A DNA stretch of 64,000 nt from Mycobacterium sp. UM_WGJ (GTDB lineage: Bacteria > Actinomycetota > Actinomycetes > Mycobacteriales > Mycobacteriaceae), in assembly GCF_000455125.1 (NCBI RefSeq), contig NZ_AUWR01000032.1:40028-104027 (forward strand), written 5' to 3'. A program made the position numbers and the translations under genes. Shown here piece after piece: positions 30,246 through 64,000 of this stretch (positions are counted from its first letter, which is position 1; each line of letters begins with the position of its first letter). The notes beneath the pieces are model-generated. The model worked only from the letters and a program-made list of their open reading frames with translations, searched no databases and was not told the DNA's origin.

Positions 30246-30268
30246 TCAGGCCTTGGGCTTGGGCCTGA
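30246..30268. terminator. Bidirectional hairpin between convergent genes
   Basis: TCAGGCC (30246-30252) and GGCCTGA (30262-30268) form a perfect 7-bp stem with a 9-nt loop, 8 nt after the stop of the Mce-associated gene and inside the 3' end of the convergent thioesterase gene. It could end transcription in both directions. Confidence 0.4.
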
Positions 30269-30863
30269 TGAAGACCCCCGCGGCATGAACAGTGACGCGG
30301 CCTTGCGGATCGAGGAGATGCCCTTCGGCGAACGTCTTCCCGCCGTCTTCGCGCTCCACCCAGGATTCCGCTCGTAATCTGCCCAGCGGCGTCGGCGCTA
30401 GGTAGCGAAGAGTCAAGGTGCCGGTGAAGGCGGGCTGTCCGGCCCGATGGGCGGTCGCACCCAATAGGTGGTCGAGTACGAGCGCGCACATGCCCCCGTG
30501 TACCTGTCCCGGTGGGCCCTCGTAGGCGGCACCCAGCACCAGATCGGCTGTCGCGCGCTGTCCCGATTCGTCAAGCTCGACGCGCAGCGGCGGTGCGATG
30601 GCGTTGCGCATGCCGATCGCCACATTGCCCCAGGCCAATGCCTGCCCGTCCGTCGCATTGCGTACCCCGAACGGTGCGGGGTCCAACCGAGATCCCAATA
30701 TCTCACTGGCCTGTTGAATCAGTGCGTGCGCCCTGCGCACGTCAGACGCGTCGGCGCGGCTGCGGATGGTCACGTCGATGAGTCCACGCAGTGACTGGGT
30801 CAACGGTTCGAAGACGGCCTGCGCGCGCTGGACGTCGTCCGGTGTGATCGGTTCGCTCAGCAT
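30246..30863 (-). CDS. PaaI-type hot-dog thioesterase
   Basis: This 205-residue hot-dog fold protein has the PaaI/acyl-CoA thioesterase signature GQVHGGMCALVLDHLLG (HGG followed by an Asp), then TLRYLAPTPLGRLRAESWV. An N-terminal helical stretch of about 80 residues precedes the fold. It probably releases free acids from acyl-CoA intermediates of the island's pathway. It is the last gene of a five-gene minus-strand unit (35364 to 30246) and overlaps the FAD-dependent dehydrogenase upstream by 7 nt. Confidence 0.8.
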   Translation of the reverse strand: MLSEPITPDDVQRAQAVFEPLTQSLRGLIDVTIRSRADASDVRRAHALIQQASEILGSRLDPAPFGVRNATDGQALAWGNVAIGMRNAIAPPLRVELDESGQRATADLVLGAAYEGPPGQVHGGMCALVLDHLLGATAHRAGQPAFTGTLTLRYLAPTPLGRLRAESWVEREDGGKTFAEGHLLDPQGRVTVHAAGVFIRPKPKA

Positions 30864-32404
30864 TCCTGCTCCTTTTCCGCCATGTCCAGCGCGGCAAGAT
30901 GACTGAACAACATGGAGGCCCCGATCGGGTTGCCCCCGCCCGGATAGGTGGTTCCACTGACGGCCGCCATGGTGTTCCCAGCGGCGTAGAGCCCGGGTAT
31001 GACGGAATCGTCATCGGTCAGCACCCTGGCATGGACGTCGGTCCGCAATCCGCCTTTGGTACCCAGATCCGAGACGCCGAATGCGGCGGCGTGGTACGGC
31101 GGCGTGTCGATGGGGACCAGCGGCGAGGCGCCCTCGGTGAACACCCGGTCGTAGGCTTCGCCGCCTCGACCGAAGTCCTCATCGACACCGGCTGCAGCCT
31201 GCTTGTTGAATCGCTCGATCGTCGCCGTCAGGTGTGCGCTGGGGACGCCGATGGCCTCGGCGAGACCGTCCAGAGTGTCCGCCGTATGCCACAGGCCGGC
31301 GAGGTGGTAGTCGGCGGCGTCGACCATCGACACATTGGTGGCGCCGACGGGGGGAATGCCGTCGGTCCGGTTGTCGTAGATCATCCAGAACGGCAACGAC
31401 ATCTTGCCGGCATCGATCTGCGCCAGCACGTCGCGCCCGAGCCGATCGTAGGGGGCCGATTCATTGACGAATCGGCGGCCATCCTGGTTGACGAAGACGC
31501 CACCGGTGAACCAGAGCGCGAACGCGGCCCGTCCATCGGGGTGAATCATCCCCGGTGACCACCATGCCTGATCCATCAGATCGACGTCTGCCCCTACCTC
31601 GATGGCGGCCCGGTGTGCGGTTCCGACATTGCCCGGTGCGCCCATGGTGTCCCGTGCGCTGCCGGGCACGCGGTACTGCGCACGCATGGCCGCGTTCTGC
31701 TCGAAACCTCCTGCGGCAAGCAGCACCCCGCGGGTGGCCCGAACCCGTACGGGTTTGCCGTCGTGCTCGACCACCGCACCGACCACGGTGCCGTCCTCGA
31801 CGATCAACTCGGTGAGCGGGGCATTTCGCCAGCACACAGCGTTCGGGAATCTACCGAGTGCGGCCAGGAAGCGTCCGACCAGTGCGCGGCCGCCGGTAAG
31901 CAGGTCTGGGGCGGGGCTGTCGAGGCGCTCGGCATCGAGGGGCCCGCGCACCGACCCGCGGTGGCCGCCGAGTTCTTGATCGGGCAGCGGCACCGGGACG
32001 GTGTGACGGAAGCCGTCGGCGCGGGCGCCGGGAACCGACCCGTAGTAGTCCGGCCAGGGGAAGGCCGCGAACTCGAATCCCGGGTCCTGTTCCAGGTATT
32101 CGATCAATCCCGCACCACCGCGGACGTAGGCCTCCTGAAGGTCGTGCGGAGTGCGGTCGCCGACGACCGCATGGAAGTAACGCAGGGCCTCTTCGATCGT
32201 GTCGTCGGCGCCGGCACGTTGCAGCGCGGGATTGCACGGGTACCAGACCCCACCGCCACCGGAGTACGCGGTGGTGCCGCCGAACCGGTCGGTGGCCTCT
32301 ACCAGCAGCACCGAAAGACCTTCGCGTGCTGCGGTGTAGGCGCCCGCCAAGCCTCCGCCGGAACCCGCGACGACCACATCGAAGACCGAATCGAAGTCAG
32401 TCAT
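30857..32404 (-). CDS. KstD-like FAD-dependent dehydrogenase
   Basis: This 515-residue flavoprotein of the fumarate reductase/3-ketosteroid delta-1-dehydrogenase family has the dinucleotide motif VVAGSGGGLAGA near residue 11 and the FAD-contacting DRFGGTTAYSGGG. Near the C-terminus it has TYPGGGNPIGASM, whose tyrosine and glycine match the catalytic Tyr/Gly of KstD. ATG 32404 lies 8 nt inside the upstream flavin reductase gene. It would desaturate a 3-keto-steroid-like ring. It is about 45 residues shorter than typical KstD. Confidence 0.8.
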   Translation of the reverse strand: MTDFDSVFDVVVAGSGGGLAGAYTAAREGLSVLLVEATDRFGGTTAYSGGGGVWYPCNPALQRAGADDTIEEALRYFHAVVGDRTPHDLQEAYVRGGAGLIEYLEQDPGFEFAAFPWPDYYGSVPGARADGFRHTVPVPLPDQELGGHRGSVRGPLDAERLDSPAPDLLTGGRALVGRFLAALGRFPNAVCWRNAPLTELIVEDGTVVGAVVEHDGKPVRVRATRGVLLAAGGFEQNAAMRAQYRVPGSARDTMGAPGNVGTAHRAAIEVGADVDLMDQAWWSPGMIHPDGRAAFALWFTGGVFVNQDGRRFVNESAPYDRLGRDVLAQIDAGKMSLPFWMIYDNRTDGIPPVGATNVSMVDAADYHLAGLWHTADTLDGLAEAIGVPSAHLTATIERFNKQAAAGVDEDFGRGGEAYDRVFTEGASPLVPIDTPPYHAAAFGVSDLGTKGGLRTDVHARVLTDDDSVIPGLYAAGNTMAAVSGTTYPGGGNPIGASMLFSHLAALDMAEKEQEC

Positions 32405-32924
32405 GCCACGCACCGTCGAATCTGCCGTATCCGCCGCGGTAGAACAGCAATGGACCACCTTCCTCGTGGGCGTGCAGTGCGGTGACACGTGCCACCACGA
32501 TGGTATGGTCGCCGGCCGCGTGTTCGAATTCCATGTCAGCTTCGATCGAAGCCAGGGCTCCCCGCAGCGCGGGCGCCCCGTTTGCGCCCGGCAGCCAACT
32601 CACTCCCGCGAACTTGTCACTTCCGCGGGTGGCGAACTGTGTGCACACGTCTTGCTGGTACGCGGACAGGACGTTGACACACAGCGTGCCGACCTCCCGG
32701 ATCCTGGGCCAGCTGCTTGATGTGTTGGCGGGGCAGAATGAGATATACGGCGGGTCCAGTGACACTGAGGTCACCGACTGGCAGGTGAAACCGAGCGGGC
32801 GCTGTCCGTCATGAGCGGTGATGACGGCGACTCCGGTGCAGAAGTGGCCCAGAACGCGGCGCATCTCCGGTGCGAGCGGTGCCTGCAGTTGACCGGTCGG
32901 GGTACTGGTGGCGTTGTCGGGCAT
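32397..32924 (-). CDS. Flavin reductase, HsaB-like
   Basis: This 175-residue FMN-binding split-barrel protein of the flavin reductase family contains FCTGVAVITAHDG, GFTCQSVTSVSLDPPYISFCP and GDHTIVVARVTAL, the standard blocks of HsaB and related reductases. HsaB supplies reduced flavin to the monooxygenase HsaA in steroid A-ring hydroxylation. An HsaA-like oxygenase lies in this window at 59130, so the two may work together although they are 26 kb apart. It overlaps the next gene by 8 nt and follows the upstream one after 8 nt. Confidence 0.83.
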   Translation of the reverse strand: MPDNATSTPTGQLQAPLAPEMRRVLGHFCTGVAVITAHDGQRPLGFTCQSVTSVSLDPPYISFCPANTSSSWPRIREVGTLCVNVLSAYQQDVCTQFATRGSDKFAGVSWLPGANGAPALRGALASIEADMEFEHAAGDHTIVVARVTALHAHEEGGPLLFYRGGYGRFDGAWHD

Positions 32925-32932: not shown

Positions 32933-34582
32933 TTAAGAGTCGTCCTCAGCGGCCAGGTTGAGCTCGGCGGCGGCATGCCCACCGGCTCGGCGTCCGCTGA
33001 AGACGCAGTCGGCGATCGAGAGCCCGCTGACGTAGCTGTTCGAGCAGATCCCGACGGCATTGCGGCCGGCCGCATAGAGACCGGGCACCGATTCTCCGTT
33101 GCGACGTTTCACCGCCCCGGTAGCTTCGTCCACGACGAGGCCCCCCAACGTCAGACCCGGAATCGGATAGAACATTGAGGAGTTCGCGGAGATGTTGATC
33201 GAATAGTAGGGCCCGGTCCGAAGCGGCGGACACAAAGAGGGGTCCTTGTGGGCGGGATCGCCAGTGCCCGAGTCGATTCCCCGGTTGTAGGCATCGACGG
33301 TCTTGCGTAAACCGCCGCCATCGATACCGTTCGCCCGGGCGATCCCGTCGAGGGATGCGGCCTTTTTGTGACCGGTGGTGAACAGATACAGCAGTTGCAG
33401 CCGCTGAAACATCTTGGTCTGCTCACGGACCTGGGTCTTGATCTTCTTCCACGTGGCCCGATCGTAGATCGCCCACCCGGTACCGCCGAACTCGCGCATC
33501 AATACGTTGCCGTGGGTGGCGCCGTAGAGGTCTTCGTTCGCGATGCGTCGCCCGTCCGCGCCGACGGTCAAACCTTCCAGAAATCCGCTGGGGGGCGCCA
33601 GAAAACGCCACGCGGTGACGTTGCCCATTTTGTCTGTCACACCGCCGGCGCTCAGTCCCAACGCGATCCCCGAACCGTCGTCGCCGCTGGTACCCAGGGG
33701 CGAGATGCCCATGAAATCGGGCGCGAACTCCTGCATCCACGTCCGGTTGTACACGAACCCGCCGGCCGCCAAAATAACTGCACTGCAACGCGCCTCTTGC
33801 TCTACCGCGGCCTTCGCCCACAATCGCTCGGCTCGCGCGACGGGGCGGCGGACCAGATGGGGCATCCAGTTGCCGATCTTGGCGGTGAGCTTGGTGAGCG
33901 CGGCATGCTCGCGCTTGCGGCGATGTGTGATGTCCATGGCACGGAAGCGAACACCCGCGACGCGGCCACTGTCATCCCTGATGAGAGCGTCTACGCGTGC
34001 GAGCGGGATGAAGTGCACACCTTTCGACATCGCGGACTGCCGTAAGTGCTCGAAGAGAACCTTGCCCGAACTCATGCCGGATGCCACCGTTCGGTGTCCC
34101 CGCGGCGCGGGCCGGGCGTGCTGCGCGTGGGGATACGCCTTCTCGTTTCCGGAGTAGTAGAGGTAGAACTCGTCGGTGGGGTAGGAGGTCTTATACGACG
34201 ACACCGCACCGCCCCTGAAAGGGACTCCTTGTGCTTTGAGCCACTTGATCATCGCCGGACTTTCCCGACAGAACCGTGTGAGCGTGTCGTCACCGACCGC
34301 GTCGCCCACCTCTTGTTTGAGGTAGGCGAACATCATCTCCGGGCTGTCTGAATAGCCGCCGGCGTGTTGTTCGTCGGTGCCACCGCCGGCGTAGACGATT
34401 CCCCCCGAGAGTGCTGTAGCGCCGCCGCCGTAACTGCGGTCCAGCACCAGGACGCGCGCACCGCGATCGGCGGCCTCGATCGCAGCGCATGCGCCCGCAG
34501 CGCCGAAACCCACCACTATGACGTCGTAGTCGAGTGTCGGCGACAATGGCTTTCCTGCCGGGGTGTGGGAGTCAGCGGTCAT
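32933..34582 (-). CDS. FAD-binding dehydrogenase, divergent KstD-like
   Basis: This 549-residue flavoprotein has VIVVGFGAAGACAAIEAADRG near residue 21 and the FAD-contact segment YGGGATALSGG. Its C-terminus reads CSNSYVSGLSIADCVFSGRRAG and lacks the YPG-type catalytic signature of true KstD. It resembles the broader fumarate-reductase-like group that includes delta-4(5-alpha)-ketosteroid dehydrogenases. It may oxidise a different ring or position from its two paralogues here. It overlaps the SDR upstream by 4 nt. Confidence 0.75.
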   Translation of the reverse strand: MTADSHTPAGKPLSPTLDYDVIVVGFGAAGACAAIEAADRGARVLVLDRSYGGGATALSGGIVYAGGGTDEQHAGGYSDSPEMMFAYLKQEVGDAVGDDTLTRFCRESPAMIKWLKAQGVPFRGGAVSSYKTSYPTDEFYLYYSGNEKAYPHAQHARPAPRGHRTVASGMSSGKVLFEHLRQSAMSKGVHFIPLARVDALIRDDSGRVAGVRFRAMDITHRRKREHAALTKLTAKIGNWMPHLVRRPVARAERLWAKAAVEQEARCSAVILAAGGFVYNRTWMQEFAPDFMGISPLGTSGDDGSGIALGLSAGGVTDKMGNVTAWRFLAPPSGFLEGLTVGADGRRIANEDLYGATHGNVLMREFGGTGWAIYDRATWKKIKTQVREQTKMFQRLQLLYLFTTGHKKAASLDGIARANGIDGGGLRKTVDAYNRGIDSGTGDPAHKDPSLCPPLRTGPYYSINISANSSMFYPIPGLTLGGLVVDEATGAVKRRNGESVPGLYAAGRNAVGICSNSYVSGLSIADCVFSGRRAGGHAAAELNLAAEDDS

Positions 34583-35364
34583 AGCACGGACTTGATCTGC
34601 CTGGCGACCAGCTCGGTGGTGCGTCCGGGTGAGATCCGGCTCAGCGCACTGAGAATGGCCGCGTCGGTACCGACGAGCACCCGGAATCGGTTCTTCACGA
34701 TGCCATCGATGATCTTCTTCGCCGCGGAAGCCGGGGTGGTAGAACGCACCTTTCGGCCGCCGGCATCGAGCATGTCGACACCAGAGTTCCCGGCCAGGTT
34801 GGTCGAGATGTTGCCTGGATAAACCGTCACGACATGAACATTGGTGTCACACAGCTCGGCATAGAGGCCTTCGCTGAACTGCTTGACGGCCCCCTTGCTC
34901 GCGCTGTAGAGCGTTTGGCTCGCGAAGGGCAGCAGCGCCGCCAGGCTTGACATGTTGGTCAAGTTGGCTTCGGGCCGATCCAGCAGGAGCGGCAGAAATG
35001 CGCGACACATATTGACCGTGCCGTTGAAGTTGACGGCCCAAACCCGGTCGATGTCATCAACGGCCAGATTCGTGAACGGCGCGAACTTGTGGATGATGCC
35101 GGCGATGTTGACGACACCGTCGATGTGACGGTGCGCCGCGGCCACCTCGCCTGGCAGCGCAGCGACGGCGAGTCGGTCAGTGATGTCCACCTTGTGGGTC
35201 GAGAATCCGGCTGAGCCGGCGACTTCAGCGGTGTCGGCCAACCCCGCTTCGTCGATGTCGACGGCGGCTACCCGCGCGCCGCGGCGAGCAAGGCCGACAG
35301 CGACCTGCCTTCCCATGCCATTTCCCGCTCCGGACACGACGAAGGTTCTTCCTTCGATCTGCAT
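34579..35364 (-). CDS. SDR-family oxidoreductase heading a five-gene unit
   Basis: This 261-residue SDR has the cofactor motif SGAGNGMGRQ near residue 11, NIAGI, a serine in MSSLAALLP and YSASK. Its C-terminus (TTPASAAKKIIDGIVKNRFRVLVG) is of the type seen in membrane-associated lipid SDRs. I chose ATG 35364, since the longer opening adds an unlike N-terminus. It is the first gene of the minus-strand unit with two flavoproteins, a flavin reductase and a thioesterase, and is divergent from the PadR regulator. Confidence 0.82.
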   Translation of the reverse strand: MQIEGRTFVVSGAGNGMGRQVAVGLARRGARVAAVDIDEAGLADTAEVAGSAGFSTHKVDITDRLAVAALPGEVAAAHRHIDGVVNIAGIIHKFAPFTNLAVDDIDRVWAVNFNGTVNMCRAFLPLLLDRPEANLTNMSSLAALLPFASQTLYSASKGAVKQFSEGLYAELCDTNVHVVTVYPGNISTNLAGNSGVDMLDAGGRKVRSTTPASAAKKIIDGIVKNRFRVLVGTDAAILSALSRISPGRTTELVARQIKSVL

Positions 35365-35592
35365 CCCCACTCCTCGTCTGATGTCCGGCTGGCGATCCGC
35401 GCCTGACCGCACGGTCGGTGCCGACGGTCGCTTGACCACCATCGAGTGTTGCAACGCATGAGAGCGGCAACAGACCCGTTTCCCGGCCAGCGGGCGGAAC
35501 GTCGGCCCCCGGGTTCTCTCGGCGCAACGCAGGTTCCCGATCAGCGGTAGTTGCGGCATCTTGCGGGTGCCGGAGGTTGTTAGCCTTGTGAA

Positions 35593-36261
35593 GTGAGCGA
35601 AGCGACCGACAATGTCCCCGCCGGGCTGAGTGTGTCACCCACCGGATGGGCGTTGCTGGGGATGCTGTCGGGCGGGGACGAGCTGTCCGGTTATGACATC
35701 AAGAAGTGGTTCAATTGGACGGTCCGGTTCTTCTACTCCAGTCCGGCATACAGCCAGATCTATTCAGAGCTGAAGCGGCTTGAGCAGCATGGTTTGGTCA
35801 CATCCCGCGTCGACGCCGGGGTACGCAGTCGGCGGATGTACCAGATCACCGATCCGGGGCTGACCGCGGTGACAAGGTGGGCCAACGAGGAGCCCGTGGA
35901 GCCCCCCACTCTCAAGCACAACCCGTTGCTGCGGGTCATTTTCGGTCACCTGATGAACCCCGGCCGGCTGCGGGAGGTACTTGACGCTCACGTCGCTCAC
36001 GTCGAGCAGATGCACCAGGCCGCGGCCACCGAGGCTCGGTGGACTGGAGAGGAGCCGGCCTGGTCCTACGCGCGACTGGCGTTGCGGTGGTCCGAGGACT
36101 ACTACGCGGCTGAACGGGATCTGGCGCTGCAGATGATCAAGGACTTGGACGAGGTCGACGAGATCTTCGCCAAGGGCGGCGAAGACGTCACCAAATTCCC
36201 GATGCGCGACTACTGGTACGAGGTCGAACGGCGTATCGCCGCCGAAGACGACCCGGCATAG
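35593..36261 (+). CDS. PadR-family transcriptional regulator
   Basis: This 222-residue regulator has an N-terminal winged helix (LLGMLSGGDELSGYDIKKWFN, then IYSELKRLEQHGLVTSRV and a wing RSRRMYQIT) and a C-terminal helical dimer domain with LREVLDAHVAHVEQMHQ, typical of the PadR subfamily. It starts at GTG 35593. It is divergent from the SDR/KstD-like unit with 228 nt between and convergent with the KstD gene at 36269, so it is the best candidate for local control. The ligand is unknown. Confidence 0.85.
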   Translation: MSEATDNVPAGLSVSPTGWALLGMLSGGDELSGYDIKKWFNWTVRFFYSSPAYSQIYSELKRLEQHGLVTSRVDAGVRSRRMYQITDPGLTAVTRWANEEPVEPPTLKHNPLLRVIFGHLMNPGRLREVLDAHVAHVEQMHQAAATEARWTGEEPAWSYARLALRWSEDYYAAERDLALQMIKDLDEVDEIFAKGGEDVTKFPMRDYWYEVERRIAAEDDPA

Positions 36262-36268: not shown

Positions 36269-37948
36269 TCAGTCGAGTCTGCCGGCCGCGTGCAGTGCCG
36301 CGATGTATCCGAAGACCAGGCCCTGTCCGATCGTCGCACCGGCCCCCGGATAGCTTGCGCCGAACGCGTTGGCGGCGGTGTTTCCGATGGCGTAGAGGCC
36401 GTCGACGGCAGATCCGTCCTCGCGCAACACCTGCCCGCGGACGTCGGTGCGCAGTCCGCCGCAGGTGCCCAGGTCGCTGAGAACCACCTTCACGGCGTAG
36501 AACGGCCCCGAGCCGACGCGACGCATGTTGGGATTCGGGGCGATCGTCGGGTCGCCGTAGTAGCGGTCGTATGCACTCGCGCCTCGGCCGAAGTCCGTAT
36601 CAACGCCTGCGTCGGCCATCCGGTTGAAGCGATCGAGCGTGGCAGCCAAGGTCGACGGATCAACGCCGATCGCACGCGCAAGTCCCGGCATATCGTCGGC
36701 CCGGTGCGCGATACCCGCGTCGTACCACGTGGTGGGGATCGGCATCCGAGGGAACAGTTCTGCGGCCATCACATAGCTGTTGCGGTACTTCTGATCAAAG
36801 ATCATCCACATTTCTTCGACGGGGTTGCCCGCGCGTTCACGTTCGAGCAGCTGCTGTCCAAAAGACATGTAGTCGATGGCTTCGTTGACGAATCGCTGCC
36901 CGTTCTGGTCGACGAGTAGGCAACCGGGAAGGGAACGTTCGGCGAGCATCACCGTCGGCTCGCCGCCAGGCAACGGCGCGAAGGCCGGAAACCACCATGC
37001 CTGGTCCATCAACGCGATGCTGGCGTCGCAGGACTCTTGGGCGAGGCGAATGCCGTCGCCGACATTGCCCTCGGCGCCGAGGCTGGCATGCTCGGCGAGC
37101 CGTTCGGACTGAAACTTGTGTCGCCAGTCCATCCGATGGTCGAAACCGCCGGCCGCCAGCACGACACCACGCCGAGTCGTAACGGTCACCGTGCTGCCGT
37201 TGCGGTTCACCACCGCACCGACAACGTGGCCGTCCTCGACAAGCAGCTCGGAGACCGGCGAGTCGGTCCACACCGGGATCCCGGCACGCACGACGCCGGC
37301 GAACATGCCTGCGGCCAATGCCTGGCCGCCCGCGGCGTATCGCCTGCGCAAAGCGAGCCCCCCGATGCCCTGGAAGGCACGAAGCAGGATTCGGGGCCAC
37401 GACTTTCGTGGCACGCGGACCATCAGGTTGAGCCAACGATAGTCAGCGCCGGTCACTGGCATGGGAAACGACGACTTCATCACGCCGGGGCGCAGCCGTG
37501 CCAACTCCGGACCGAGTACGGCGGTGTTGAACGGGCGGCATTCGCAGGTCCGCCCGATTGCGCTGCCGCCCGGCCTCTCCGGGTGGTAGTCCGAATAGTC
37601 CTTGGCCCACTGGAATTTCATCGGGGTGGTGCGCCGCAACATCTGAACCGTCGGCCCGCCGTAGTAAAGGAACGTGTGTGCCCGCTCGTGAGCTGACGCA
37701 TCCCCGATAACCGAGTCGAGATAGGTGCGCCCCGCGGCCAGCGTGTCGTCGGAACCCGACTCGGCAAGTATCGGGTTGGCCGGCATCCAGAACGCGCCAC
37801 CCGAACGCGCCGTCGACCCCCCGACGTAAGAGGTCTTCTCCACGATCAGTGTCGACAGGCCCGCCTCGTGTGCGGCAAGTGCCGCCGCCATTCCGGTACC
37901 AGAACCAACGATGAGTAGATCGACAGTGATGTCGTGTGGATCGGTCAC
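36269..37948 (-). CDS. kstD: 3-ketosteroid delta-1-dehydrogenase (KstD family)
   Basis: This 559-residue flavoprotein, the usual KstD length, has LLIVGSGTGMAAALAAHEAG near residue 11, then EKTSYVGGSTARSGGAFW. The C-terminus SYPGAGATIGQGLVFGYIAALHAA carries the catalytic Tyr and Gly of KstD. The family introduces the 1,2 double bond into ring A of 3-keto steroids, one of the two steps that break ring B when combined with KshAB. A KshA-like gene starts divergently 135 nt away, which supports this role. It is convergent with PadR, 7 nt between stops. Confidence 0.85.
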   Translation of the reverse strand: MTDPHDITVDLLIVGSGTGMAAALAAHEAGLSTLIVEKTSYVGGSTARSGGAFWMPANPILAESGSDDTLAAGRTYLDSVIGDASAHERAHTFLYYGGPTVQMLRRTTPMKFQWAKDYSDYHPERPGGSAIGRTCECRPFNTAVLGPELARLRPGVMKSSFPMPVTGADYRWLNLMVRVPRKSWPRILLRAFQGIGGLALRRRYAAGGQALAAGMFAGVVRAGIPVWTDSPVSELLVEDGHVVGAVVNRNGSTVTVTTRRGVVLAAGGFDHRMDWRHKFQSERLAEHASLGAEGNVGDGIRLAQESCDASIALMDQAWWFPAFAPLPGGEPTVMLAERSLPGCLLVDQNGQRFVNEAIDYMSFGQQLLERERAGNPVEEMWMIFDQKYRNSYVMAAELFPRMPIPTTWYDAGIAHRADDMPGLARAIGVDPSTLAATLDRFNRMADAGVDTDFGRGASAYDRYYGDPTIAPNPNMRRVGSGPFYAVKVVLSDLGTCGGLRTDVRGQVLREDGSAVDGLYAIGNTAANAFGASYPGAGATIGQGLVFGYIAALHAAGRLD

Positions 37949-38052: not shown

Positions 38053-38083
38053 CTGCAGGCGATGAACAGCGAGGATGGCCGGA

Positions 38084-39256: not shown

Positions 39257-39521
39257 CAACCGGTTGAGCGACGCGCCGATGACTCCGGTGATATGCGGAT
39301 CATGCGGCGCGCGCGTCCTGGCTCGCAAGAGCAGCTGGGAACAGACCAGTGTGCAATGGAACGGCGCTGCCATAGCCCGGTGTCAGGAACGGTGGAGCGC
39401 GCATCCCTCGGTCCACGGAACGGACCTGAGGCCGGGCACCTTCCTGGCGTGCGAACGCTTGCGCACCTCGATCGACGAGGCTGTCGGCACGGGTTCGTTA
39501 CCGGTGTTCGACGGGCTCTGA
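39246..39521 (+). CDS. Small CxxC protein overlapping the kshA-like gene
   Basis: This 91-residue protein has Cys17-GS-Cys20 and further cysteines at 46 and 69, a layout that could bind zinc or an Fe-S cluster. The start overlaps the 3' end of the kshA-like gene by 11 nt, so the two are probably co-translated, and a strong hairpin follows its stop. I do not recognise a named family. A helper, ferredoxin-like or assembly role for the oxygenase is possible but unproven. Confidence 0.6.
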   Translation: MRPDNRLSDAPMTPVICGSCGARVLARKSSWEQTSVQWNGAAIARCQERWSAHPSVHGTDLRPGTFLACERLRTSIDEAVGTGSLPVFDGL

Positions 39522-39561: not shown

Positions 39562-39595
39562 GGTGTGGTCCCGCCGACTGAGGCGGGACCACACC
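39562..39595. terminator. Strong bidirectional terminator hairpin
   Basis: GGTGTGGTCCCGCC (39562-39575) and GGCGGGACCACACC (39582-39595) pair perfectly over 14 bp with a 6-nt loop. The hairpin sits between convergent genes ending at 39521 and 39611. No T-run follows on the plus strand, as is usual for mycobacterial terminators. Confidence 0.75.
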
Positions 39596-41789: not shown

Positions 41790-41799
41790 GGTGGGGCTC

Positions 41800-43200: not shown

Positions 43201-43212
43201 GTGACATGTCTC

Positions 43213-43248
43213 CCAAGTATTGGCGTGCGGAAACCAAGTGCTCCTTGG
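43213..43248. promoter_or_regulatory. Two CCAA-type inverted repeats before the NTF2-like gene
   Basis: CCAA-GTA-TTGG lies at 43213-43223 and CCAAG-TGCTC-CTTGG at 43234-43248, both just upstream of the NTF2-like gene start at 43200. They share the CCAAG half-site, which resembles the KstR2 half-site, but the KstR2 consensus needs a 2-nt centre. They may bind a local regulator. Confidence 0.35.
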
Positions 43249-56907: not shown

Positions 56908-57785
56908 GCGAGCTTGAGTGCCCCGGTACGAGCTGCCGGTCGCGCGGCAGGCCCTGCGCGCAGCGGTCGCATCTGCTGCAGAGTGGGGGACACTCGAACG
57001 GGGCCGCAGTCGACCGCTTGCCAAATGCCCATCGCGGCGATCCGCACCGGAGCGACCAACCGCTGGTCCAGCTTGATCCGGTTCATCGGCCCGCAGACCG
57101 AGATCGCGGCGACCGCCTCGCCCGGGTCGCCGATGGGGGCGGCGACGCAGCCGAAGCCGGGCAGTGACTCTTCCCGGTCGAACGCGAAGCCGTGAGTGCG
57201 GACTTTGAGCAGTTCGCTGCGAAGTTGGGCGTGGGTGGAGATCGAGTACTTGGTCCGCCGGGGCAGTCCATCGGAGTTCAAGACGTCGATGTCACCCTCG
57301 TCGGCAAACGCCAGCATTGCCTTCCCCACCGCGGTGCAGTGCGCCAGTTGGCGGCCACCGACGCGGGTCGGAATTGCCGCGGTCATGCGATCGCCGACCT
57401 TGTCCATGTAGACGACGTCGGGTCCGTCAAGGACGGCGAGGTGCACCACCAGGCCGGTCGCGGCGTGGAGTTCGTGCAGTTTGCGGAGCGCGGCCTTGTG
57501 CAGGCGATCCTGGTGCACCGCCAGGGATCCCAACTCGACGAGGCGCATGCCCAGTTCGTAGTCCCGGCCGCTGCGGCGCAGCCAGCGCAGCTGGACGAGA
57601 CGCTCGAGCATGCGGTGCGCTGACGAGCGGGGAAGCCCGGTCCGGCGCACGATCTGGGCCAGCGTCAGGCGGCCCGGCCCGTCGAAAGCGTCGAGGACCA
57701 GGGATACCCGGTCAATGACGGCGCTGGGAGTTTCGTTCGGCGCATCCTTGGCGGCGGTCACGGGTAATGCGGCTGTCGCGGGCAT
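56904..57785 (-). CDS. IclR-family transcriptional regulator
   Basis: This 293-residue regulator has an N-terminal winged helix (LTLAQIVRRTGLPRSSAHRMLERLVQ) and an effector domain with ALRKLHELHAATGLVVHLAVLDG, GRQLAHCTAVGKAMLAF and GFGCVAAPI. ATG 57785 has GGAGGA 6 nt upstream. Two adjacent palindromes at 57804-57833 lie in its promoter, so self-repression is likely. It is followed by the esterase and preceded on the same strand by KshB-, HsaA- and HsaC-like genes, which it may also control. Confidence 0.88.
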   Translation of the reverse strand: MPATAALPVTAAKDAPNETPSAVIDRVSLVLDAFDGPGRLTLAQIVRRTGLPRSSAHRMLERLVQLRWLRRSGRDYELGMRLVELGSLAVHQDRLHKAALRKLHELHAATGLVVHLAVLDGPDVVYMDKVGDRMTAAIPTRVGGRQLAHCTAVGKAMLAFADEGDIDVLNSDGLPRRTKYSISTHAQLRSELLKVRTHGFAFDREESLPGFGCVAAPIGDPGEAVAAISVCGPMNRIKLDQRLVAPVRIAAMGIWQAVDCGPVRVSPTLQQMRPLRAGPAARPAARTGALKLA

Positions 57786-57803
57786 GGGGATCCTCCGGGG
57801 TAC

Positions 57804-57833
57804 ATGCCTATTAGGCATATGACTAATGGTCAT
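57804..57833. promoter_or_regulatory. Tandem 15-bp palindromes, probable IclR operators
   Basis: ATGCCTATTAGGCAT (57804-57818) is a perfect palindrome around a central T. ATGACTAATGGTCAT (57819-57833) follows with no gap and its arms extend to ATATGAC...GTCATAT (57817-57835). Both fit ATGnCTAnTnGnCAT. They lie 19-48 nt before the IclR start, where an autorepressor would bind. Two abutting sites suggest cooperative binding by an IclR tetramer. Confidence 0.65.
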
Positions 57834-57835
57834 AT

Positions 57836-58210
57836 CTCTACCACATCGGTGTTGCTGTTGTCACACTTCCGCTCGAATTCGAGTGCGCGCACGACCGTCG
57901 GCCTGCACGCCGCCGGTCTCACCAGCAACGCGGCATGGCATAACGGGGCTGCGCGTCCGGGTTCACGCCGTGCGCGGTGCGCGCGTTAAAGGACGCCGCC
58001 GTGGCCCGCAGCGCACCGGGCGCCGACCCCGTCTCTCTCCAGATCAACGACGGTGTCGGCGACCCAGGTGGACGGATGCATCATCAGTTTTCGATGATCA
58101 GAAACGCCTTGTTGTCAGTGGTTGGCGTCAGCTGCCCGACTCGAGGGCACGCCGCAGTCGAGCGGCCGATCGACGCCGGCGGGTGGCCGGCCGGAAGGGG
58201 AAGCCAGGGA
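57836..58210. other. Gap between the IclR promoter and the HsaC-like gene
   Basis: About 375 nt carry no gene I can support. Open frames on either strand are short, lack a ribosome binding site and have no family resemblance. It may hold the IclR promoter core near 57840 and the 3' region of the HsaC-like transcript. I see no clear hairpin. Confidence 0.5.
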
Positions 58211-59119
58211 TTACGGCCGCATCGCCGCAGGCAGGTCGTCAACCCACCGGTGGCCCCAGTAACTGTCTGCCGTGATCTCTTCGGCGGTGTAGTGGGTGTC
58301 ATCGACCCGCATGCCGTCGGTGCCGAACTCGATGTCCCAATCTCCCGGTGCGCGAACGTAGAACGACACCATCTTGTCGTTGGTATGCCGCCCCAGTGTC
58401 GACGACAGCTGAAAGCCGTCCTTGGCGACTCGGTCAAGCGCCTGGCCGACGCTGTCGAGGCTGTCGACTTCGACCATGAGATGGATCAACCCGGGGTCGC
58501 GCAGCGTTGCCGCAGGGCACAGGGCCAGGCTGTGATGGCGCTCGTTGACACCTAGGAAGCGCACGCGTACCGGTCCGAACTCCGGGGGAACAGGCACCCG
58601 GAAGGCGCCGCGTGACTTGAACCCCAACACCTCGGTGTAGAACTCGAACAAGCCCGCGACATCGAGGGCCGGCAACACCACATGCCCCAGGCCCTGGTCG
58701 CCCGTCACGAACTTTGCGCCGAATGGCGTGATGACCGGGCTGTGATCGAGAACCGGGCCGTGGAAGACCTCAAGCGACGTACCGGCGGGGTCTTCGAACG
58801 CGATGGCCTCTTCAACACGGCGGATGTCGGCCTCGGCCAGTGACAACTGCCGGTAGGAGACGCCGGCGGCCGCAAGGGAGTGCGCGACCGTCTGCAGGTC
58901 TGCGTGGTCGCGCACCTCCCAGCCGATGGTGGTGATCTTGTCGGTGTCGCCGGGGGATACCACGATTCGGGCGGTGCGTTCGTCCATCCGCAGGTACAGC
59001 GAATCCGGATCGGGGCCGCTACCTTCGGCGAAACCCAGTACGCCGAAGGCGAAGTGACGCCACTTCTCGATGTCGGTGGCTTGTACCGTGACGTAGCCGA
59101 GGCTCTTGATCGGGCTCAC
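58211..59119 (-). CDS. HsaC-like extradiol ring-cleavage dioxygenase
   Basis: This 302-residue type I extradiol dioxygenase has two vicinal-oxygen-chelate domains. The Fe(II) ligands are His146 in GLGHVVLP, His213 in LIHLMVEV and Glu264 in WDIEFG. Active-site His195/His196, His245 and Tyr254 also look conserved. HsaC cleaves the catechol formed from steroid ring A (3,4-DHSA). Here it follows an HsaA-like oxygenase (10-nt gap) and a KshB-like reductase, so it is probably the meta-cleavage enzyme of a parallel pathway. Confidence 0.87.
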   Translation of the reverse strand: MSPIKSLGYVTVQATDIEKWRHFAFGVLGFAEGSGPDPDSLYLRMDERTARIVVSPGDTDKITTIGWEVRDHADLQTVAHSLAAAGVSYRQLSLAEADIRRVEEAIAFEDPAGTSLEVFHGPVLDHSPVITPFGAKFVTGDQGLGHVVLPALDVAGLFEFYTEVLGFKSRGAFRVPVPPEFGPVRVRFLGVNERHHSLALCPAATLRDPGLIHLMVEVDSLDSVGQALDRVAKDGFQLSSTLGRHTNDKMVSFYVRAPGDWDIEFGTDGMRVDDTHYTAEEITADSYWGHRWVDDLPAAMRP

Positions 59120-59129: not shown

Positions 59130-60374
59130 TTAGATCATTGCCCGTAGCGGGCCCTGCGGGTCCACGCCGAGCGAGCTCAATGCCGAGGCGTGGTAGACCG
59201 TTCCCGGGGCGTGGATCGCATGCACCTGTCCGACGTGGACGTCGCGCCAGTAGCGCTGCAGTGGCTTGTCCATCCGTGTGGCATTGCCGCCACACCGGGC
59301 GAAGAGCTCGTCGACCGCCGAGACGGCGCGCCATACCGCGCGAATCTGAGTGCGGCGCCCAGCCGCTCGGTCCTCGAATGAGACGTCCTTGCCGGCGTCG
59401 ACCATGTCGTAGATCCGGTCGGCGTTGGCCAGGAGCTCTTGACGAGCGGCGTTGATGTCGGCGGCGGCCTCACCGATCGCGAACATCACATAGGGGTCGT
59501 CTTTGATCGCAACACCGCTGGAATTCACCCGAGAGCGCTGGTAGTCCAGCGCAGCGGCCAAAGCGCCTTCGGCGATGCCGATCGTCGCCGACGAGATGCC
59601 CAGCGGGAACATCGTCGACCAGGGCATCAAATAAAGCGGCTCGGTCATCCCGGCCTCGCGTTGCGCGGTGCCGTCCATAACCTGCAAAGCATCCATCGTG
59701 CGGTAGCTCGGCACGAACGCATCGGAGACGATGACGTCCTTGGAACCGGTGCCTCGCAATCCCACGACGTCCCAGGAATCCTCGACGATCTGGTAGTCCT
59801 TGCGCGGCAGAATCATGTGCAACATCTGCGGGGGCATCAAGGGCTTGCCCTCGGCGTCACCGATCATGGCGCCCAGAATGATCCAGTCGCAATGGTCGGT
59901 GCCCGAACTGAACTGCCAACGCCCGTTGAAGAGGTAACCACCGTCAACCGGCTTGGCGACGCCTTGCGGTGCGTAGGGCGACGCCACCCAGGTGTCGACG
60001 TCGTCGGCCCAGATCTCGTCGCCGACTCGAGGATCGGCGTAGGCGAGCTGGTAGGGGTGCACGCCGACGACACCGTTGATCCATCCCGCGGACGGGTCCA
60101 GCGCGGCGGTCGCCATCACCGTTTCGGCGAACTCACGCGGGTGCACCTCCAGCCCGCCGTGCTTCCGCGACTGCAACAGCCGAATACTGCCGATCTCCTT
60201 CATCGACTTGACTGTGTTGTCAGTCAGCTTGCCGATCTTCTCGGCTTCCTCGGCTTGCTCGCGCAGTTGGTCGGCCAGCTCCGCGACGCGGTCGATCACC
60301 CGTTTAGTCATGTCAACGATGGTGGACGCGGGGAGCGGGCGGTCGCCGGCCTCGTCCCGGTGAGCGGACGACAT
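59130..60374 (-). CDS. HsaA-like flavin-dependent monooxygenase oxygenase subunit
   Basis: This 414-residue acyl-CoA-dehydrogenase-fold hydroxylase of the HsaA/HpaB-like group has conserved blocks GWINGVVGVHPYQLAYAD, GRWQFSSGTDHCDWIILG and DVVGLRGTGSKDVIV. Like HsaA it lacks the acyl-CoA dehydrogenase C-terminal signature and ends with WRDVHVGQVHAIHAPGTVY. It hydroxylates a phenolic ring using reduced flavin; the HsaB-like reductase at 32397 is the likely donor. The start is uncertain: ATG 60374 is used, while ATG 60311 would give 393 residues, near the M. tuberculosis length. Confidence 0.86.
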   Translation of the reverse strand: MSSAHRDEAGDRPLPASTIVDMTKRVIDRVAELADQLREQAEEAEKIGKLTDNTVKSMKEIGSIRLLQSRKHGGLEVHPREFAETVMATAALDPSAGWINGVVGVHPYQLAYADPRVGDEIWADDVDTWVASPYAPQGVAKPVDGGYLFNGRWQFSSGTDHCDWIILGAMIGDAEGKPLMPPQMLHMILPRKDYQIVEDSWDVVGLRGTGSKDVIVSDAFVPSYRTMDALQVMDGTAQREAGMTEPLYLMPWSTMFPLGISSATIGIAEGALAAALDYQRSRVNSSGVAIKDDPYVMFAIGEAAADINAARQELLANADRIYDMVDAGKDVSFEDRAAGRRTQIRAVWRAVSAVDELFARCGGNATRMDKPLQRYWRDVHVGQVHAIHAPGTVYHASALSSLGVDPQGPLRAMI

Positions 60375-60386: not shown

Positions 60387-61457
60387 TCAGAACTCGACAT
60401 TCAGCTTGTCGGACAGCGGGCGCGCCTGGCAGGCCAGGAACAACCCCTCGGCGATGTCTTCGGGTTCGAGGATCGCAGCATTGCCCAAATCGACCTGACC
60501 CTCGACCACCGTCGCCGCACACGAGCCGCAGTTGCCCTCCCGGCAGGAGAACGGAGCGTCGATGCCCGCAGCGAGCATCACATCAATCAGGTTGCGGGAC
60601 TTGGGCCAGCAGAGGCGATGGGTCTTCCCGTCGATGCGGACCTGCACGTCGGCCGCCTCAGCGTCGCCGCCGAAGTCTTCGATCGGGACGTCGGCAAACG
60701 GATCACCGGTGAGCGACTGGAACACTTCGAGGCGGATGTTCTCGCGTGGTACGCCGGCCTCACGCAACGCCTCTTTCACCACTGCCATAAACGGCTCGGG
60801 GCCGCACACGAATGACTGGTAGCTGGTGAACATCCGGGCGAAGCCGCCCAACTGAGCGCGGGTAGGCAGACCCTGGATCGACTCGAGCCAGTGCAGAACC
60901 GTGAACCGACCGGCATACCGCGCAGCCAGTTCGCGCAGCTCGGCCGCGAAGATGACCGAACTCTCGTCACGGTTGGCGTAGCACAGCACTACCCGTCCGG
61001 TGCCGGCGGCGAGCGCCGACTTGAGGATCGACATCACTGGGGTGACCCCGCTCCCTGCCGCCCATAACAGAAAATCCGCATCCAGATCCGCCGGCGTGAA
61101 CTGTCCGGACGGCGGGAGGGCTTCGAGAGTGTCACCGACGGAAACGTTGTCGCACAGCCAGTTCGACACGTAGCCGCCATTCGTACGCTTGACGGTGACC
61201 TTATGCACGGCATCGGTGTGCGGAGAACTCGCCAGCGAGTAGCAACGGGCGGCCGACCCGGTCAGGTCGCTTGGTACGCGCACCGTCAGGAACTGCCCCG
61301 GCCGGTAGCTGAATCGGTTCTGATACTCGTCGGGAATCGCCAGCACCACCGACTTCGCGTCGTGGCTCTCCTCGATGACGGCTGTGACGGTCAGTGCTAC
61401 GGCGCGTGCGCCGTCCCCGGCTCGGCCGGCAGATCCTGCATCGGTCATGGCCGACAT
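60387..61457 (-). CDS. kshB: KshB-like reductase of 3-ketosteroid 9-alpha-hydroxylase
   Basis: This 356-residue iron-sulfur flavoprotein reductase has the FAD motif RCYSLASSP at 71-79, an NAD(P) site AAGSGVTPV and CGP at 218-220, and a plant-type 2Fe-2S ferredoxin domain with Cys305, Cys310, Cys313 and Cys343. The length and domain order match KshB, which passes electrons from NADH to KshA. It leads a unit with HsaA- and HsaC-like genes (12- and 10-nt gaps). The likely oxygenase partner in this window is the KshA-like protein at 38084. Confidence 0.87.
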   Translation of the reverse strand: MSAMTDAGSAGRAGDGARAVALTVTAVIEESHDAKSVVLAIPDEYQNRFSYRPGQFLTVRVPSDLTGSAARCYSLASSPHTDAVHKVTVKRTNGGYVSNWLCDNVSVGDTLEALPPSGQFTPADLDADFLLWAAGSGVTPVMSILKSALAAGTGRVVLCYANRDESSVIFAAELRELAARYAGRFTVLHWLESIQGLPTRAQLGGFARMFTSYQSFVCGPEPFMAVVKEALREAGVPRENIRLEVFQSLTGDPFADVPIEDFGGDAEAADVQVRIDGKTHRLCWPKSRNLIDVMLAAGIDAPFSCREGNCGSCAATVVEGQVDLGNAAILEPEDIAEGLFLACQARPLSDKLNVEF

Positions 61458-61578: not shown

Positions 61579-63192
61579 GTGAGCAGCCCGACCGAAAGCA
61601 ATGTTGACGTCATCGTGGTGGGTGCCGGGTTCGCTGGCCTGTATGCCCTGCACAAGTTCCGGCAACAGGGGCTGTCGGTGCGCGTCTTCGAAGCGGCACC
61701 CGAAGTCGGAGGTACCTGGTACTTCAACCGGTACCCGGGAGCGCGCTGCGATGTCGAGAGCCTGGACTACTGTTACTCGTTCTCCGATGAGTTGCAACAG
61801 GAGTGGACCTGGACCGAGAAGTACGCCACCCAGTCCGAGATCCTCGACTACATCAAGTGGGTCGCCGACAGGCTCGATCTGCGACCGGGGATCACGTTCA
61901 ACACCAGGGTGGTCTCGGCTGTTCTCGACGAGGACGTGATGCGGTGGACGATCGCCACCGACAGTGGAGAAACGGTCGTCGCGCGGTTCGTGGTGATGGC
62001 CACCGGGCCGCTGTCCTCGCCCTTGACTCCGGACATCCCGGGACTGGACACCTTTGGCGGCGAGATCTATCACACCGCGCATTGGCCGCACGAGGGTGTG
62101 GACTTCACCGGAAAGCGGGTCGGCGTCATCGGGACCGGTTCGTCTGGTGTGCAATCGATTCCACTCATCGCCGAACAGGCCGCACAGCTGGTGGTGTTCC
62201 AACGCACCCCTAACTACAGCGTGCCCGCGGGTAACCGCCCGTTGACCGCCGAGGAGATCGCTCACGCCAAGGCGACCTACGACGAACGGCGCCAGATGTC
62301 CTGGCGCAGTGGCGGCGGGTCACCGCATGTCGCCCATCCGAAGCTGACCATGCAAGCCACGCCCGAAGAGCGCTACGCGGCCTTCGAGGAACGGTGGCAG
62401 CTGGGCGGGGTGTTGTTCTCCAAGACCTTCGCCGACCAGATGACCGACATCGAGGCCAATGAGGAAGCCCGAAAGTTCTACGAAGGCAAGATTCGTGCGG
62501 TGATCGACGACCCCGAAGTCGCCGAACTGCTGATCCCCAATGATCATCCGATCGGCACCAAGCGAATCTGCACTGACACCAACTATTTCCAGACATTCAA
62601 TCGCCCCAACGTCACATTGGTCAGTGTTCGCAAGACTCCGATCGAGGCGATCGACGAATCGGGCATCGAGACCTCCGAGGGGCACTACGACCTCGATGCC
62701 ATCGTCTTGGCGACTGGCTTCGACGCCATGACCGGCACTCTGGCCAAGATCGACATCGTCGGTCGCGGGGGGCGCAAGCTGGTCGAGGATTGGTCACACG
62801 GGCCCCGCACCTACCTCGGGCTCGGTGTCGACGGATTCCCCAATCTGTTCCTGGTATCCGGGCCCGGCGCACCGGCGGTCCTGGCCAATATGGTTCTGCA
62901 CGCCGAGGCGCACATCCAGTGGATCTCCGAGGCCATCGCCTATCTGGACCAGCATGGCTACGCGGCCATGGAAGCCAACGCCGGTGCCGTCGACGCCTGG
63001 GTTGCCGAATGTAATCAGCGAGCCGACGCCACCCTCTTTCCCAGAGCTAACTCGTGGTACGTGGGTGCCAACGTTCCCGGAAAGCCCCGCGTGTTCATGC
63101 TTTTCATCGGCGGCTTCGCCACCTACCTCGATATCTGTGCAGAGGTCGCCGACGCGGGATACAAGGGATTCACCCTGCTCAAGACGTCCTGA
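61579..63192 (+). CDS. Baeyer-Villiger-type flavin monooxygenase
   Basis: This 537-residue class B monooxygenase has GAGFAG at 15-20, the fingerprint FGGEIYHTAHWP at 159-170 and the NADPH motif GTGSSG at 185-190, at the typical length for cyclohexanone or steroid monooxygenase-like enzymes. It starts at GTG. Its TGA overlaps the ATG of a short frame that looks like the end of hsaE. It could oxidise a ring ketone to a lactone. It is divergent from the KshB/HsaA/HsaC-like unit. Confidence 0.9.
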   Translation: MSSPTESNVDVIVVGAGFAGLYALHKFRQQGLSVRVFEAAPEVGGTWYFNRYPGARCDVESLDYCYSFSDELQQEWTWTEKYATQSEILDYIKWVADRLDLRPGITFNTRVVSAVLDEDVMRWTIATDSGETVVARFVVMATGPLSSPLTPDIPGLDTFGGEIYHTAHWPHEGVDFTGKRVGVIGTGSSGVQSIPLIAEQAAQLVVFQRTPNYSVPAGNRPLTAEEIAHAKATYDERRQMSWRSGGGSPHVAHPKLTMQATPEERYAAFEERWQLGGVLFSKTFADQMTDIEANEEARKFYEGKIRAVIDDPEVAELLIPNDHPIGTKRICTDTNYFQTFNRPNVTLVSVRKTPIEAIDESGIETSEGHYDLDAIVLATGFDAMTGTLAKIDIVGRGGRKLVEDWSHGPRTYLGLGVDGFPNLFLVSGPGAPAVLANMVLHAEAHIQWISEAIAYLDQHGYAAMEANAGAVDAWVAECNQRADATLFPRANSWYVGANVPGKPRVFMLFIGGFATYLDICAEVADAGYKGFTLLKTS

Positions 63193-63281
63193 TGCCGAGC
63201 CTGGTCATCGATGTACATGCCGGTGACGACTGTGTTGCCGAGTTCTCCGGGCTGGGTTCGGTCCGGCTGGTTTTCGCATAG
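63192..63281 (+). pseudogene. Remnant of an HsaE-type hydratase C-terminus
   Basis: The 29-codon frame reads LVIDVHAGDDCVAEFSGLGS then VRLVFA, which fits the last strand pair of 2-keto-4-pentenoate hydratases (a HAGD turn, then LGS and a VxxxF strand end). In M. tuberculosis hsaE stands directly before hsaG, as this does. The rest of the gene is missing; the BVMO gene takes its place, with a TGATG overlap. It is probably the scar of a rearrangement; the short frame may still be translated by coupling. Confidence 0.55.
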
Positions 63282-63301
63282 ATTCGAATTGAGGAGCGTT
63301 C

Positions 63302-64000
63302 ATGGCTGCTAAGGCCTCAGTGGCGATTGTCGGGTCGGGCAATATCAGCACTGATCTGTTGTACAAGTTGTTGCGTTCGCAGTGGCTGGAGCCGCGCTGG
63401 ATGATCGGCATCGATCCGGAGTCTGAGGGCTTGGCTCGGGCGCGCAAGCTGGGTTTGGAGACCTCGGCCGAGGGGGCGGACTGGCTGTTGGGGTTGGATG
63501 AGAAGCCGGATTTCGTGTTCGAGGCCACCAGTGCTTATGTGCACAAGGCGTATGCGCCCAAGTATGAGGCCGCTGGTATCCGGGCGATCGATTTGACTCC
63601 GGCCGCGGTGGGTCCGGCGGTGATTCCGCCGGCAAACCTGCACGAGCACGTCGACGCGCCGAACGTGAACATGATCACTTGTGGTGGTCAGGCCACCATT
63701 CCGATCGTGTATGCGGTGACCCGCGCGGTCAAGGAGCAGGGCGGCACGGTGCCTTATGCCGAGATCGTGGCCAGTGTTGCCAGTGTGTCGGCCGGCCCGG
63801 GCACCCGGGCCAATATCGATGAGTTCACTAAGACCACCTCGCGTGGGGTGGAGGTCATCGGTGGTGCGCAGCGGGGTAAGGCGATCATTATCTTGAATCC
63901 GGCTGATCCGCCGATGATTATGCGCGACACCATTTTCTGCCAGATCCCTGAGGACGCTGATCGGGATGCGATCACCGCGTCGATCAAGGACGTGGTGGCG
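63302..64000 (+). CDS. hsaG: Acylating acetaldehyde/propanal dehydrogenase HsaG, 3' end cut
   Basis: The first 233 residues of an acetaldehyde dehydrogenase (acylating) are present. They show NAD motif [10 protein letters not shown] near residue 7, the catalytic Cys127 in [31 protein letters not shown] and the dimer block [14 protein letters not shown]. HsaG turns the aldehyde released by the aldolase HsaF into acyl-CoA, the end of steroid ring A/B breakdown. ATG 63302 has GAGGAG upstream. hsaF is expected just outside the window. The gene uses TTG and GGT codons more than its neighbours. Confidence 0.92.

Follow-up and report, generated by a model that had tools for sequence, protein, structure and literature searches.

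The C-19+ cluster of Mycolicibacterium smegmatis, reportedly described by Fernandez-Cabezon 2017, comprises the genes around MSMEG_2867–2893. It is described as a second steroid cluster whose evolution was separate from that of the KstR regulon (PMC5962712). Its KshA2 (MSMEG_2870), KstD2 (MSMEG_2869), KstD3 (MSMEG_2867) and KshB2 (MSMEG_2893) proteins are 386, 558, 522 and 351 amino acids long, and the four genes reportedly lack KstR operators and are not induced by cholesterol (PMC5270728); a group of mce genes, MSMEG_2854–2865, lies beside the C-19+ genes (PMC4881515). Here we describe a catabolic island at positions 30246–64000 of a 64,000-nucleotide stretch from Mycobacterium sp. UM_WGJ (hereafter the window; C32:40028–104027 on contig C32, NZ_AUWR01000032.1). 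The island fits the C-19+ cluster type already described in M. smegmatis and appears to be this species' version of it. On balance, we lean towards reading it as a second 9,10-seco steroid pathway that is fed by pregnanes and whose lower pathway has merged into that of cholesterol.

A second set of KstD, KshA and KshB paralogues stands beside a cholesterol set in this genome, as in C-19+. KstD3, KstD2 and KshA2 are neighbours and are accompanied by mce genes, in the order g02, g06, g07, g08 with g03–g05 between g02 and g06; g06 encodes a PadR-family regulator (35593–36261, plus strand; family scan), and MSMEG_2868 is presumably also a PadR gene. The island KshA2, KstD2, KstD3 and KshB2 have 393, 559, 543 and 356 amino acids, with neighbours as in C-19+, and no exact match to the KstR operator consensus was found in the island. 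The KstD3–KstD2–KshA2–mce neighbourhood is kept, with gaps, in loci L003–L009. Genes for PadR, KstD2 and KshA2 are found together in 37 of 47 mycobacterial loci and in 0 of 33 others, several loci being cut by contig ends, which lowers gene counts. Island-type HsaC, defined as E at most about 1e-130 and tallied from the match table, was present in 255 of 394 sampled genomes of the genus (about two thirds); in another 127 all HsaC matches were weaker, and 12 had no match at E 1e-60.

In a KshA phylogeny, island-type KshAs stand apart, with full support, from the two cholesterol KshAs included; its 75 named rows are best matches and not an even sample. The source genome (4.47 Mb in 116 contigs) is, judged from KshA, that of a Mycolicibacter-like species, because the nearest named relatives are Mycolicibacter sp. 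MYC098 (94%) and M. kumamotonensis and M. senuensis (both 89%; records of the own genome were possibly left out of this listing) and because the KshA tree places the window KshA with Mycolicibacter relatives.

An initial annotation made from the letters alone had described a second nucleus-degradation set, and all the gene types it named were recovered at 30246–64000 by Pfam and NCBIfam profile scans and the open reading frame (ORF) list; the Pfam scan covered part of the island ORFs and the NCBIfam scan 30 of them. Its second set was borne out by Ksh, KstD and Hsa copies elsewhere in the genome, and the possibility it had raised, that the island copies might be the only ones, is contradicted by KshA1 (C32:10163, 58% identical), HsaC1 (C35:61527, 51%) and KstD1 (C64, 42%). 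The three KstDs it counted became two. The KstD3-type 3-ketosteroid-delta1-dehydrogenase g02 (30857–32488, minus strand; PDB 4C3X, 411 bits, matches starting at residue 29) and KstD2, g07 (36269–37948, minus; NF009479, 1025 bits against a cut-off of 793), both keep the catalytic Tyr, Tyr, Tyr and Gly in alignments read by eye, and are good candidate delta1-dehydrogenases. The third, g04 (32933–34582, minus), is a flavoprotein closest to the 3-ketosteroid-delta4(5alpha)-dehydrogenase 4AT0 and lacks YxxxG.

KshA2 (g08, 38075–39256, plus; Pfam KshA_C, E 4e-88) keeps its expected Rieske and iron ligands, and HsaC2 (g25, 58211–59119, minus) its metal ligands, two His and one Glu. HsaA2 (g26, 59130–60374, minus), the flavin reductase HsaB2 (g03, 32397–32924, minus; NCBIfam) and HsaC2 fall below their NCBIfam equivalog cut-offs (377/450, 193/230 and 371/450 bits, respectively), and the best-fitting model for KshB2 (g27, 60387–61457, minus; 54% to KshB1) is PaaE, at 243 bits against a cut-off of 421. 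These scores fit diverged paralogues. By sequence, the island holds paralogues for delta1-dehydrogenation (KstD2 and KstD3), 9alpha-hydroxylation (KshA2B2) and the hydroxylation and cleavage of ring A (HsaA2B2 and HsaC2), and a paralogue of HsaG (HsaG2).

The proposed entry reaction is that of g28 (61579–63192, plus), a predicted steroid Baeyer–Villiger monooxygenase (BVMO) of the steroid monooxygenase (STMO) type. Full length, g28 shares 65% identity over 529 residues (346/529) with Rhodococcus rhodochrous STMO (PDB 4AOS), to which it is nearer than to any other solved BVMO (807 bits, against 647 to phenylacetone monooxygenase, PAMO); what we take to be the BVMO fingerprint lies at residue 159. 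In 47 of 50 carriers of island HsaC, hand-picked from the 255 genomes and mostly single-contig, a g28 orthologue starts at most 5,339 bp from the start of that gene, and a g28 match of at least 900 bits was found in 2 of 25 genomes without island HsaC (G004 and G362; the 25 were sampled from the 127). All three Amycolatopsis loci hold kshB, hsaA, hsaC, STMO (59%) and a hormone-sensitive-lipase (HSL)-type esterase gene as co-directional genes next to a divergent kshA, with ~95 bases shared between the alignments of STMO and esterase. STMO converts progesterone to testosterone acetate and does not lactonize androstenedione (AD), a Baeyer–Villiger step opens progesterone degradation in Caenibius tardaugens, and how the Rhodococcus host of STMO degrades progesterone is said to be undescribed (PMC12239570). 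From the STMO–HsaC2 linkage and the co-directional Amycolatopsis genes, we therefore predict feeding by C20-ketosteroids (pregnanes). In excerpts of the most relevant papers on C-19+ and mycobacterial steroid BVMOs (PMC12239570, PMC5962712, PMC11279926 and PMC6593523), we found no C-19+/STMO link, though the primary Environ Microbiol 2017 and 2018 papers may hold one; the pregnane entry and the HsaD takeover described below were not found in print, and the hsaG–hsaF copy may be new too.

A second STMO-like BVMO, 64–67% identical to g28, lies at L087:11701–13521 and in genomes G019, G063, G275 and G329, within ~11 kb of a cluster-type hsaD even where island hsaC is absent. G003 has two HsaC2–STMO units ~10 kb apart, and G127, G300 and G388 each have two STMO-type genes 10–13 kb apart and three HsaC matches. 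These arrangements suggest tandem duplication inside the cluster.

The right end of the island bears on its lower pathway. Just past the STMO stop at 63192, a block matching the canonical hsaE–hsaG–hsaF operon starts at 63196 with an 86-base 3' stub of hsaE (63196–63281, plus), followed by an hsaG copy (g29, 63302–64000, plus) that is cut by the contig end. Island and canonical genes are 94.6% (hsaG) and 92.1% (hsaF) identical in DNA, closer to each other than either is to the genes of the relative G326 (84.7–90.1%; one short hsaF piece 91.3%), whose island hsaG lacks the hsaE stub. The end of contig C64, both ends of C32 and the end of C100 fall in these hsaG/hsaF near-repeats, and the genome has one full HsaE. 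By these comparisons, the island hsaG–hsaF was recently copied from the canonical pair, and the stub is a copy scar. Past ring A cleavage the two pathways thus seem to run on the same products, which favours a true steroid substrate and disfavours a terpenoid.

HsaD points in the same direction. The canonical hsaA and hsaC are 32 bases apart with no hsaD between them (L084:16471–16504, contig C35), and the HsaD equivalog model gives nothing above its cut-off of 400 bits in this genome: the best match, at C100:4711–5553 beside an hsaF, scores 269 bits and the next 131. This protein, HsaD2, may nevertheless work like HsaD although outside the NCBIfam equivalog. Canonical HsaD scores above the cut-off in 53 of 75 genomes; the other 22 all have a match of 261–278 bits, a cluster type that was called by score and not by alignment of all sequences. 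Cluster-type HsaD occurs in 49 of the 50 island-HsaC carriers (all but G008). In 43 of them it shares a contig with island HsaC, and in 40 of these the two are no more than 22 kb apart (exceptions G066, G347 and G212). Among the 25 genomes without island HsaC, it is present in 7/7 that lack canonical HsaD, against 2/18 that have it (Fisher p 7.5e-5, a value inflated by related species). Because canonical hsaD is missing here, HsaD2 probably took over the cholesterol step and so serves cholesterol too. In M. sinense, a Mycolicibacter that may be among the 22, a homologue-count survey does not, in its excerpts, list hsaD as missing (PMC6429209), the outcome expected of such a replacement.

In the pathway we propose, the second Mce system would take up the steroid, and g28 would convert the 17-acetyl side chain of a C20-ketosteroid to a 17-acetate ester, which the esterase g23 or g10 would cleave. 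A short-chain dehydrogenase/reductase (SDR) would then form the 17-ketone, giving intermediates of the AD or androstadienedione (ADD) type. The island Ksh and KstD enzymes would open the nucleus, followed by HsaA2B2 and HsaC2, HsaD2, HsaE and HsaF/G, and g04 would admit 5alpha-reduced steroids. After ring A cleavage the two pathways would merge, with one full HsaE, copied hsaG and hsaF, and HsaD2 probably acting for cholesterol too. The PadR regulator g06 and the IclR regulator g24 would control the cluster, and the FadD, FadE, EchA, alcohol dehydrogenase (ADH) and aldehyde dehydrogenase (ALDH) block probably serves a different side chain as an optional module. A wider claim, which we hold tentatively and at somewhat less than even confidence, is that C-19+ clusters are actinobacterial pregnane (progestogen- or corticoid-type) islands, that a C20-ketosteroid or ester is the inducer, and that cholesterol growth in Mycolicibacter and some other mycobacteria depends on HsaD2 since canonical hsaD was lost.

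Several points weigh against a pregnane-fed C-19+ cluster. Orthology to the M. smegmatis cluster is argued from published locus tags, lengths and gene order; three of the 50 carriers (G279, G008 and G212) have no STMO near HsaC2; the Amycolatopsis esterase is as near to g10 (45–47%) as to g23 (45–46%); and the proposed pathway assigns no step to g09, g12 or g21. A personal communication tied the ability of derepressed M. smegmatis to grow on progesterone to the luciferase-like monooxygenase (LLM) of the ADD+ cluster (PMC12239570), and C-19+ seems needed for efficient use of the C19 steroids AD, ADD and 9-hydroxyandrostenedione (9OH-AD; PMC5962712). In unreplicated RNA sequencing, cholesterol induces MSMEG_2854–2865, and MSMEG_2867 and MSMEG_2869 are ~twofold higher on cholesterol, MSMEG_2869 being inconsistent in quantitative reverse-transcription PCR (PMC4881515); kshA_2 of another strain, treated as the MSMEG_2870 counterpart, is 25-fold up on phytosterol (PMC6593523). 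A further paper states that neither phytosterol nor C19 steroids activate C-19+ and that its natural activation is not established (PMC10672877). The independence of C-19+ from cholesterol is therefore disputed, the published expression data being in conflict (PMC5270728 versus PMC4881515).

The C-19+ name itself refers to C19 steroids, for whose efficient use the cluster is said to be necessary (PMC5962712), and the island might be an orthologue serving C19 androgens (AD, ADD and testosterone), in which case its BVMOs would act at the 17-ketone to open ring D and would not remove an acetyl group from C17. Fungi are described as making testolactone by means of a BVMO (PMC12239570, PMC5962712), and the second island BVMO, g19, is not STMO-like, scoring 195 bits to CHMO and 164 to STMO; the statement that C19 steroids do not activate the cluster (PMC10672877) conflicts with PMC5962712, and we regard the androgen reading as unlikely, if the least so of the alternatives. 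Degradation of a sterol acid or bile-acid-like steroid, its carboxylated side chain handled through FadD, FadE and EchA, would give a role to the FadD, paired FadEs, EchA, ADH and ALDH present, but the FadD g18 reaches 251 bits of the 750 required for the bile-acid ligase CasG, and the FadE pair occurs in 18/47 mycobacterial loci against 37/47 for PadR, KstD2 and KshA2 (cut loci lower both), making this quite improbable. We give hardly any credence to a pathway for a non-steroid polycycle such as a di- or triterpenoid, which draws on nothing but the absence of cholesterol-type P450s: the KstD catalytic residues are kept, KshA is steroid-type and the BVMO STMO-type, and hsaG/hsaF and HsaD appear exchanged with the cholesterol pathway, suggesting the same A-ring product. 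The terpenoid or bile-acid-like nucleus offered in the initial annotation thus has against it A-ring end-products held in common with cholesterol (hsaG/hsaF copies at 95%/92%, one full HsaE, and cluster-type HsaD as the sole near-family copy in 22/75 genomes).

Left of the island, a KstR-like operator (619–632, plus; exact match) precedes a first mce operon with an MlaE/YrbE permease, Mce proteins and accessory genes (783–11676, plus). From its place and this site, we take this operon to be mce4, at the right edge of the cholesterol cluster; the genes to its left are likewise named by their place. A second exact operator match (14369–14382, plus) precedes an SDR gene (14404–15225). Searching exact matches to the consensus, we found these 2 sites in 64 kb against 0.18 expected (2/100 shuffles reached 2) and none right of 14382, so the island operons are without the upstream KstR operators expected of the cholesterol regulon. 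No KstR2-type site matching the consensus was found in the window. Five further exact KstR-like sites lie left of the window on C32 (L002 and L083), and one also in a relative's locus, L089. That part of C32 also holds a FadE-like pair, FadD-like genes and KshA1 (C32:10163, 58% identical to KshA2). The sterol genes are therefore not clustered elsewhere, as the initial annotation had supposed: KshA1, the FadE-like pair and mce4 are on C32 as well, a short way to the left of the island, and both pathways are likewise side by side in G326.

A second mce operon (two YrbE and six Mce genes; 17960–27194, plus) and mce-associated genes (one VirB8-like, others of no assigned family; 27241–30237) adjoin the island. 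The mceF end of this operon is kept beside the island in L003–L009, and the operon is the probable steroid importer of the island. The 34-kb span first drawn thus holds the gene set, whereas the functional unit is larger, including the mce operon on the left and a probable continuation on the right. The window and contig C32 end together; contig C100 holds hsaF2 and hsaD2, and the island probably continues there, the C32–C100 join being modelled on G326. We claim no common operator at the island's divergent promoters, where searches for inverted repeats and shared 10-mers, together with 8 aligned sequences of the KstD2/KshA2 gap, gave only GC-rich words and blocks without evident meaning.

The remaining island genes include two SDR genes, g11 (41800–42690, minus; NCBIfam) and g20 (52509–53633, plus), a 4HBT thioesterase (g01, 30246–30863, minus; family scan), a SnoaL-like protein (g12, 42694–43278, minus; family scan) and a Dabb-domain protein (g21, 53648–54274, minus). 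The side-chain-type block consists of the paired acyl-CoA dehydrogenases g13 and g14 (FadE pair, 43307–45507), an enoyl-CoA hydratase (EchA, g15, 45492–46277), ALDH and Zn-ADH (g16 and g17, 46327–49012) and the acyl-CoA ligase FadD (g18, 49101–50861, likely start near 50706), all on the minus strand. The BVMO g19 (50707–52749, plus; likely start near 50826) has an N-terminal extension and is nearer CHMO than STMO. Two HSL-type esterases are present, g10 (40833–41897, minus; NCBIfam) and g23 (55960–57024, minus), the latter of the LipP1 family (381 bits, cut-off 350) and proposed as the testosterone-acetate hydrolase. The one old yellow enzyme (OYE)-family reductase, g22 (54732–55970, plus), matched nothing in the PDB at E 1e-40. 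As first annotated, no P450 appeared: none was among the NCBIfam matches of the 30 scanned ORFs (E 1e-10, best 25 per protein).

The dehydrogenase-like g04 was found in 5/47 mycobacterial loci at varying cluster positions, with the SDR gene g05 (34579–35559, minus; mostly beside g04 where both occur) in L007, L011, L012 and L014 and alone in L008. The g04–g05 segment (32933–35559) shifts position between species, with a different orientation also in L007, and looks like a moving cassette. Directly 3' of KshA2, a small Cys-containing protein, g08b (39246–39521, plus), is encoded in 45/47 mycobacterial and 26/33 other actinobacterial loci and is a possible Ksh accessory protein. Also near KshA2, g09 (39611–40687, minus; start uncertain, internal ATG used) encodes a highly conserved protein for which Pfam and NCBIfam gave no match and the PDB no significant one; it is present in 33/47 mycobacterial loci and 0/33 others, its GHxD and VHR motifs are invariant in 9 sequences, and its AlphaFold model from those 9 sequences has a mean pLDDT (predicted local distance difference test) of 36.5. 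The pattern His-x-Asp...His in it might point to an iron enzyme, a reading that nothing supports and that we set aside. A perfect 10-base inverted repeat with a loop of 6 (39566–39591), lying where g08b and g09 converge, is a possible terminator. Adjoining AT-rich palindromes at 57802–57840, at the start of the IclR-family gene g24 (56904–57833, minus), are a candidate operator, likely IclR's own. Elsewhere in the genome, L093 (C9:10000–29999) is a further KstD-bearing region, with KstDs of 582 and 542 amino acids.

The STMO and esterase linkage gives both C-19+ activation and the pathway of the STMO host a concrete candidate substrate. With island-type HsaC in roughly two thirds of the genomes sampled from the genus, these bacteria may be relevant to the breakdown of steroid-hormone pollutants. 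As the HsaD distribution warns, counting homologues of cholesterol genes can mask the replacement of an enzyme, and deleting the cluster to improve industrial strains could harm sterol growth in species that lost canonical hsaD.

Among described systems, C-19+ of M. smegmatis resembles the island in the similar lengths and neighbour order of KstD3, KstD2, KshA2 and KshB2, in the mce genes alongside and in the lack of a KstR operator. It differs in that the island here lies only a short distance past the cholesterol cluster's mce4, in that hsaG and hsaF here are recent canonical copies with an hsaE stub, and in that HsaD2 is here the sole HsaD near the family in the genome. The KstR-governed cholesterol cluster has the same reaction sequence of KstD, KshAB and HsaA–G, at identities of 58% (KshA), 54% (KshB), 51% (HsaC), 48% (HsaB), 42% (KstD) and 39% (HsaA); unlike it, the island has no P450 (NCBIfam) or exact KstR-like site and has PadR and IclR regulators. 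The ADD+ cluster of M. smegmatis, which holds MSMEG_4862 (PMC12239570), is a further steroid cluster at a locus separate from the island. Its MSMEG_4864 and MSMEG_4870 have 587 and 546 amino acids (PMC5270728), against 582 and 542 for the KstDs of contig C9, whose region may by these lengths be the ADD+ counterpart, so that the genome may carry three steroid clusters. The pdc cluster of the proteobacterium Caenibius tardaugens is a small unit of a BVMO, an LLM and two regulators, for which Baeyer–Villiger conversion of progesterone to testosterone acetate before entry into the 9,10-seco pathway has been demonstrated (PMC12239570). We propose this conversion for the island too, whose BVMO sits inside a whole nucleus-degradation cluster. 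Rhodococcus STMO (4AOS) is 65% identical to g28, from whose sequence the same activity is predicted.

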